From Eucommia ulmoides (Eukaryota > Streptophyta > Magnoliopsida > Garryales > Eucommiaceae): DNA of 64,000 nt. The stretch is taken from contig CM028335.1 of the NCBI GenBank assembly GCA_016647705.1, forward strand, positions 18,640,905 through 18,704,904, read 5' to 3'. Positions 12,834 to 13,110 of the stretch are shown in pieces. How positions within the stretch are numbered: position 1 is the first letter of the stretch; every line of letters begins with the position of its first letter. A program made the translations under genes and the position numbers. A model generated the notes under the pieces. The model ran no database searches, was not told where the DNA came from, and was given only the letters and a program-made list of their open reading frames with translations.

Positions 12834-13110
12834 CGCCTAGGCGGTGGAAATTGCGCCTAGGCGGAGTTAGGTCGGTTAAGTCTGATCGCCTGGGAGGTGA
12901 AGTAGGCGGTGGACTGGGAGAACATTCTGTTGTATTTTCGCCTAGGCGGTAGAATTTCCGCCTAGGCGAGAGGCTGTCAGTAGCCCTTCTATGTCCTCTG
13001 CTGGATTTCCGCCTGAGCGGTAGAATTTTCGCTCAGGCGGTCGTCCGTCAGTAACATTTTGCTCTTCTCTGCATTTTCACCGCTTAAGTGATGGTCTGGA
13101 CGCTTAAGCG
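12834..13110. repeat. Array of CGCCTAGGCG-type palindromes
   Basis: Perfect CGCCTAGGCG occurs at 12834, 12854, 12939 and 12959. Next come CGCCTGAGCG (about 13010) and its exact reverse complement CGCTCAGGCG (about 13030), then CGCTTAAGTG and CGCTTAAGCG (13081-13110). Confidence 0.85.

Follow-up and report, generated by a model that had tools for sequence, protein, structure and literature searches.

Arrays of a 12-bp box, CCGC-YNNR-GCGG, are carried by the LTRs of several retrotransposon families in the window (the whole 64-kb stretch of DNA that was analysed), and in two of these families, A and D, the boxes stand in inverted pairs. At one such pair, A1 of family A, the 4-bp centres of the two boxes tend to change together between copies. 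We tentatively read the array as a cis-regulatory set of protein-binding boxes whose arms would be held complementary through pairing in single-stranded intermediates. The region 12821-13120 contained seven boxes that match CCGC-N4-GCGG with one mismatch or none, where 2,000 first-order Markov resamples averaged 0.22 and never exceeded 3, and the whole window contained 34, against a mean of 1.8 and a maximum of 4 in 20 resamples. The box array in this region is real and lies far above chance.

A preliminary description of the region had listed four copies of CGCCTAGGCG followed by CGCCTGAGCG, its reverse complement CGCTCAGGCG, and then CGCTTAAGCG. All were found, CGCCTAGGCG at 12834-12843, 12854-12863, 12939-12948, and 12959-12968, CGCCTGAGCG at 13010-13019, CGCTCAGGCG at 13030-13039, and CGCTTAAGCG at 13101-13110, and the symmetric forms given for relatives at 47876-47980, 48896-49092, and 53945-54185 were also present in the sequence. 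The relatives had been said to carry these forms at the same place. This is correct for the array as a whole, which in each of the five window copies aligned came after the conserved LTR start and before an AT-rich block of the ATATTTTTAGGATATTTTT type; box by box, only the first pair corresponded clearly. The window copy alone has the exact CGCCTGAGCG/CGCTCAGGCG pair (1 of 28 aligned rows of family A), the majority centres at this pair (A2) being CTGA/TTAG in 17 of 28. Three features had been overlooked, namely the box at 13080-13091 that is the partner of 13100-13111, a degenerate pair at about 12886-12912, and the fixed 20-bp spacing inside pairs. Pairs A1, A2, A3, and the degenerate fourth pair succeed one another at 71 bp, as 71-bp modules. 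The outer ends of A3 are T...A and not C...G, so that its arms match, yet each single 12-bp box is imperfect. The coordinates are collected in Table 1.

Table 1. LTRs, box arrays and associated features in the window
Feature	Position	Strand	Basis
Solo LTR of family A, 1,720 bp (TGATAGG...CTACCA), inserted in a second LTR-like element	11618..13337	-	ends read in sequence
Hairpin pair A1 (box spacing 20 bp), TTAA/TTAA in window copy	13080..13111	-	family alignment; homologous pair sampled genome-wide
Hairpin pair A2, CTGA/TCAG in window copy	13009..13040	-	family alignment
Hairpin pair A3, CTAG/CTAG	12938..12969	-	family alignment, box count
Degenerate fourth pair of family A	12886..12912	-	sequence, family alignment
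Hairpin pair A5, CTAG/CTAG	12833..12864	-	family alignment, box count
TATA-like box CTATAAATA, about 42 bp beyond the last box in the sense direction	12782..12790	-	sequence; putative assignment
Family D LTR, TCTTA on both sides	53758..55293	+	sequence, genomic copies
Family D array (53952-53983, 54023-54054, 54085-54116, 54150-54180)	53952..54180	+	sequence, alignment, box count
Family B array, three boxes, sense centres CGCA, without 20-bp pairs in window copy	47879..47977	-	sequence, box count
Family C array, decayed; first pair aligns with A1	48900..49088	+	sequence, alignment
Second family C array	52970..53106	+	sequence, alignment, box count
LTR2 array of eight boxes, paired at a spacing of about 20-21 bp (four pairs); centres of pairs 3 and 4 non-complementary	11060..11308	-	sequence, copies

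The solo family A LTR was flanked by GCAGT and GCAGC, which are alike at 4 of 5 bases, and a primer-binding site was absent 3' of this copy. Among 26 related rows, AGTTTT-TGGCGCCGTTGCCGGGGA followed the LTR directly and exactly in seven and with changes in several more, the others having unrelated flanks. TGGCGCCGTTGCCGGGGA, which thus stands six bases past the LTR, is a putative primer-binding site of the tRNA-Asp type, as used by Athila and its relatives; for Diaspora, a tRNA-Asp primer site 5 bp past the LTR is stated. On this basis the elements are probably Ty3/gypsy and may be Athila-like. Directly before TGATAGG, several copies of A and D had AGTTTGGGGGTAT at the end of the 5' flank. The LTR-start pattern common to families A-D had 7,324 exact matches in the 947-Mb genome and none in the reversed control; a first look gave 4,104 candidates for family A and 276 for the LTR2 family. 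The LTR start at 13314-13337 and other TGATAGG ends form an inverted repeat, GATAGGT-7 nt-ACCTATC, whose loops vary among the matches listed of the 7,324 and whose arms are largely fixed by the search pattern.

Within U3 of the LTR, the array stood upstream of the AT-rich block ATATTTTTAGGATATTTTT and, in family A, of the TATA-like box; no clear TATA box was found in families B, C, or D. The LTR2 array, which belongs to the LTR-like element into which the family A solo LTR inserted, was followed by GCAGATTAAGGAATTTTTAGG, reminiscent of family C, and a shared origin, capture, or convergence are possible explanations of this likeness. A Pfam search of 13 window proteins from 12 places yielded nothing attributable to the A or D elements. 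Elsewhere on the minus strand, it identified RVT_1 (reverse transcriptase) and RVT_3 fragments at 41540-43930, and a 399-codon frame at 28888-30087 matched the GT-B domain of sucrose synthase modestly (27 bits against a cut-off of 23). The window also contained tandem arrays with a 25-bp period at 60142-60480 and 62560-62947 and a 205-bp tandem duplication, 98% identical, at 55612-56021.

The unit common to A, B, C, D, and LTR2 is the 12-bp box, often extended to CACCGC....GCGGTG. Half-sites and the fixed gap between them were alike in all five arrays, which differed in centres, spacings, and flanks; half-sites conserved at a fixed spacing around a free centre are the pattern expected of a dimeric transcription-factor site. 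The pattern CCGCYNNRGCGG occurred at 38,414 places genome-wide, compared with 833 for the reversed control (46x), and the box with one extra spacer base at 1,127 places, compared with 3,595 for its control. Centres were mostly pyrimidine-NN-purine across the array families, of the form YYRR in A and D (CTAG, CTAA, TTAG, TTAA) and of the form YRYR, CGCG or a transition product of it, in the majority of B boxes and in many of those of C. The centre variants of families B and C were mostly transitions of CGCG, as expected of CpG decay. Change at CpG sites affected 188 of 1,856 half-site letters in A and D and 50 of 628 spacer letters, and raised change of this kind is expected of methylated DNA in general. 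CpG decay was rejected as the whole story, since it accounts for most of the variation in B and C but not for the transversion exchanges at A1 described below. In another repeat family (e.g. G000:C1:554407-554441), CCGCTTCGGCGG and CCGCTACGGCGG boxes were seen 23 bp apart with the loop AGTGATGTTAT; this family had no link to the family A LTR.

Boxes in A and D were arranged in inverted pairs 20 bp apart (19 bp in pair D4), each able to fold as a hairpin. In addition to the window copies, the alignments comprised 27 copies of A and 29 of D, which are drawn from the closest matches to the window and are a non-random set, and they cover the instances that span the query, omitting 6 of 31 for B and 2 of 32 for D. 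In family A, the A1 centres were TTAA/TTAA in 17 of 28 rows, including the window copy, and TTAG/CTAA in nine, and the two majority pairs beyond A2 were both CTAG/CTAG; of the four family D pairs, three read CTAA/TTAG and one CTAG/CTAG in the majority rows. Family B had seven pairs at 19-21 bp among 31 instances, with between-arm matches equal to the permutation mean, and family C had 15 such pairs among 22 instances without between-arm excess (p = 0.29). The arms of LTR2 were mismatched at pair 3 (CTAG/CGAG in four of six rows) and pair 4 (CGCG/CGAG in four of six).

Folding was scored as 110-nt segments below -40 kcal/mol, the criterion used for maize according to PMC10760457. On the plus strand of the window, 15 of 3,195 segments passed, in four clusters, three of which were arrays A, B, and D; the C arrays were not among the segments below this value. 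On its own strand, LTR2 had 2 such segments among 161. Apart from the arrays, only the 110-nt segment at 59701-59810 folded strongly on the plus strand.

Covariation was assessed at the homologous A1 pair, for which a search by loop and half-sites returned 523 places and the reversed control none. The analysis used the first 100 of the 523 in contig order, intact half-sites being required, and of the 11 pairs of the A1 stem, 7 are fixed by the search pattern and are uninformative. In 72 of these 100 the two centres were exact reverse complements, whereas 20,000 shuffles averaged 31.3 and never exceeded 47. The same 100 copies comprised 27 distinct states, six of them exact complements (shuffled mean 2.1, p = 0.0115): TTAG/CTAA (46 listed copies), TTAA/TTAA (14), CTAG/CTAG (9), and three that involve transversion exchanges, CTCG/CGAG, CGAG/CTCG, and TGCG/CGCA, with one listed copy each. 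Over the distinct states, 80 of 108 centre positions matched (shuffled mean 53.3), a value that none of 20,000 shuffles reached. The outer centre positions showed no covariation within the box (p = 0.79 and 0.29) but covaried strongly between the boxes (p = 3e-13 and 2e-8 across the 100 copies listed, 0.025 and 1 across the 27 distinct states). At the inner centre positions, covariation was present both within the box and between the arms.

The preliminary description had held that symmetry is kept while sequence changes, as expected for compensatory change, and had proposed structural covariation as the check. When the 27 distinct rows were folded as a between-arm structure, 94.9% of cells paired and all four variable pairs changed on both sides; the score was 0.260, compared with 0.121 for shuffles and at most 0.123 for slid structures, and paired cells and score exceeded all 500 shuffles. 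Two measures, the count of pairs changed on both sides and the count of pair types, are the least sensitive to relatedness and were not above shuffles (414 and 157 of 500 were as high), so that relatedness is only partly controlled. Folding each box on itself gave a score of 0.201 and 92.3% pairing, above its own shuffles, with the gain at two inner positions. Symmetry internal to the box was rejected as the main conserved unit, since the outer positions covary between the arms and not within the box. Coupled change is thus mainly between the two arms of a pair, with some covariation also inside the palindromes, and the claim of compensatory change is partly supported. The two main A1 states were scattered over a poorly resolved tree, on which at least 5 and at least 4 changes are needed; of the only two supported independent row pairs on this tree, one agreed and one showed no difference.

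The coupling of arms is not universal, there being no excess in B, C, or LTR2. In a general sample, the first 100 of 673 pairs in contig order with intact half-sites required, 40 of 100 were exact complements. By class, these were 2 of 13 TGAATCYA pairs, 4 of 18 D2/D3-like, 1 of 7 A2/A3-like, 15 of 25 and 15 of 18 in two other classes, and 3 of 19 in the rest. For the 77 YYRR-class pairs, a table that leaves aside the 23 of 100 that are not YYRR/YYRR, matches at the outer positions numbered 57 and 52 between arms, compared with 44.9 and 38.5 expected, and 35 and 28 within the box, compared with 37.8 and 38.8 expected. The between-arm p values were 0.21 and 0.056 over the 40 distinct YYRR rows and 0.0005 and 0.004 over all 63 distinct rows. 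Among rare stem changes (three rows or fewer) in the A and D alignments, 1 of 153 was a compensated double change, a count that sets aside 17 further cells at pairs non-complementary in the majority. Mispairs read in the sense direction were G-U in 57 and A-C in 59 cases pooled (40 vs 50 and 17 vs 9; p = 0.93), a comparison of low power, since many of the mispairs may have arisen through decay at a later time. Transitions make up much of the remaining variation and keep purine/pyrimidine symmetry without any constraint.

In the reading that we tentatively prefer, the array would be a cis-regulatory part of U3, and each CCGC-YNNR-GCGG box a putative site for a dimeric host DNA-binding protein that would read the two half-sites and tolerate changes in the 4-bp centre. 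The paired boxes, two helical turns apart and just upstream of the core promoter, may drive or modulate transcription, a promoter role that is suggested by one TATA-like box, that of family A. Half-sites and gap recur in B and LTR2, where the pairing is lacking, and this suggests protein recognition as the function that the arrays would have in common; conservation of half-sites between related families could in part be inheritance. LOB-domain proteins are a lead as candidate readers: their site, GCGGCG, occurs within boxes whose centres are CGCG or CGCA and is absent from CTAG-type boxes. The inverted arms of A and D would pair with each other in single-stranded genomic RNA or cDNA, which is the simplest account of their complementary centres, and hairpin-templated copying during replication would more probably keep them so than selection on the hairpin. 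Copying from arm to arm needs no selection and fits the absence of a G-U bias, and the single compensated change among 153 rare stem changes suggests that the coupling acts during replication rather than in integrated copies. Complementarity is the sole signature of templated copying here, a shared ancestral inverted pair explains part of it, and the mismatched pairs count against steady copying, which should have mended more of them.

Templated copying also explains the arm pattern that selection on pairing would give. The main alternative is that four or five stem-loops at the 3' end of the genomic RNA are themselves selected, for packaging, dimerisation, export, 3' processing, or stability, with true compensatory change. 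The multi-state covariation of the A1 arms, including the transversion exchanges (one listed copy each), and the coincidence of arrays A, B, and D with three of the four strongly folding plus-strand clusters speak for it. Whole classes of pairs are nevertheless imperfect, B and C are without excess, LTR2 keeps mismatched pairs, and the C arrays are absent from the strongly folding segments. As G-U mispairs are no more frequent than A-C mispairs in the sense direction, there is no sign of selection on the sense RNA; the case for such selection is weak, and we regard selected stem-loops as unlikely. Rather unlikely, too, is the variant in which a hairpin array of these probably Ty3/gypsy elements at the 3' end of the genomic RNA undergoes selected compensatory exchange of whole centres while its boxes double as promoter sites.

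Hairpin-templated copying, by quasi-palindrome correction or template switching, may also have acted in sequence without any present function. Such copying has been described for the hairpins of RNA genes (PMC8794818), the exact complements exceed shuffles, and the intermediates show no G-U preference; the recurrence of CCGC, GCGG, and the fixed gap in arrays without complementary pairs, and the contrast of spacings genome-wide, would however go unexplained, and we consider absence of function improbable. Tandem duplication of an ancestral inverted pair followed by decay through transitions, with the symmetry due to descent and purine/pyrimidine conservation, agrees with the 71-bp modules of family A, with the CGCG transitions that make up most B and C centre variants, with the few changes that the A1 states need on the poorly resolved tree, and with the two structure measures not above shuffles. 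It is disfavoured, and to us quite improbable, because six A1 states are exact complements, 72 of 100 listed copies are exact where shuffles reach at most 47, and the outer positions do not covary within the box, for which descent is identical. Least probable of all, and very much so, is that the hairpins are a liability, the transcribed arrays feeding small-RNA production and silencing as proposed for the palindromes of maize Sireviruses. Segments of arrays A, B, and D pass the maize folding criterion (PMC10760457), but this reading explains a consequence and not maintenance, and change at CpG sites is raised in the half-sites but also in the spacers.

Sirevirus LTRs are described as carrying 8-32 palindromic boxes per element, with a CGG-CCG core in 12 of 13 elements and clustered upstream of TATA (PMC2829016), and their palindromic arrays have been interpreted as cis-regulatory (PMC2829016, PMC10760457). 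The arrays described here are similar in having at least eight GC-rich boxes of dyad symmetry that lie upstream of TATA, for the most part in the upper LTR half, with variable bases between the symmetric subunits; with up to two mismatches allowed, 9 boxes were counted in the majority row of A and 8 in that of D, lying in the first half of the LTR, the TATA-like box being present in A only. The maize box, CACCGGACNNNGTCCGGTG, also begins with CACCG and ends with CGGTG, as given in PMC10760457. The Sirevirus hosts are Ty1/copia elements, whereas those here are probably Ty3/gypsy; the core there is CGG-CCG and here CCGC-YNNR-GCGG, dyad symmetry being common to both; and here, unlike in Sireviruses, the boxes form inverted pairs 20 bp apart whose arm centres covary. 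ATTGG of the Sirevirus CA/ATTGG 5' LTR junction was found in none of 26 rows. Hairpins shaped by template switching (Monttinen and Loytynoja 2022, PMC8794818) likewise show multi-base complementary change between stem arms, in RNA genes with reconstructed ancestral histories there, and in LTR hairpins of one genome without a direct switch footprint here. In the heat-response elements of the ONSEN copia LTR (PMC3907296), a symmetric host-factor site similarly couples an element to a host regulator; binding of heat shock factor has been demonstrated for ONSEN, whereas the host factor here is putative. Among the titles listed on LTR palindromes, hairpins, and U3 repeats, none was on paired covarying Ty3/gypsy boxes, and a text search with four box sequences gave no retrotransposon title among the matches listed.

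Palindromic arrays in cis-regions, described for Sireviruses, are here extended to a group that is probably Ty3/gypsy and numbers thousands of copies. What is new relative to known rows of boxes is the inverted pairs, the two halves of which tend to vary jointly. A single hairpin present in hundreds of copies is a natural experiment, in which selection and templated copying predict differently, and the array can lead to the host protein that would read CCGC-N4-GCGG. Were the hairpins selected after all, they would be a plant counterpart of the 3' structural elements of retroviruses.
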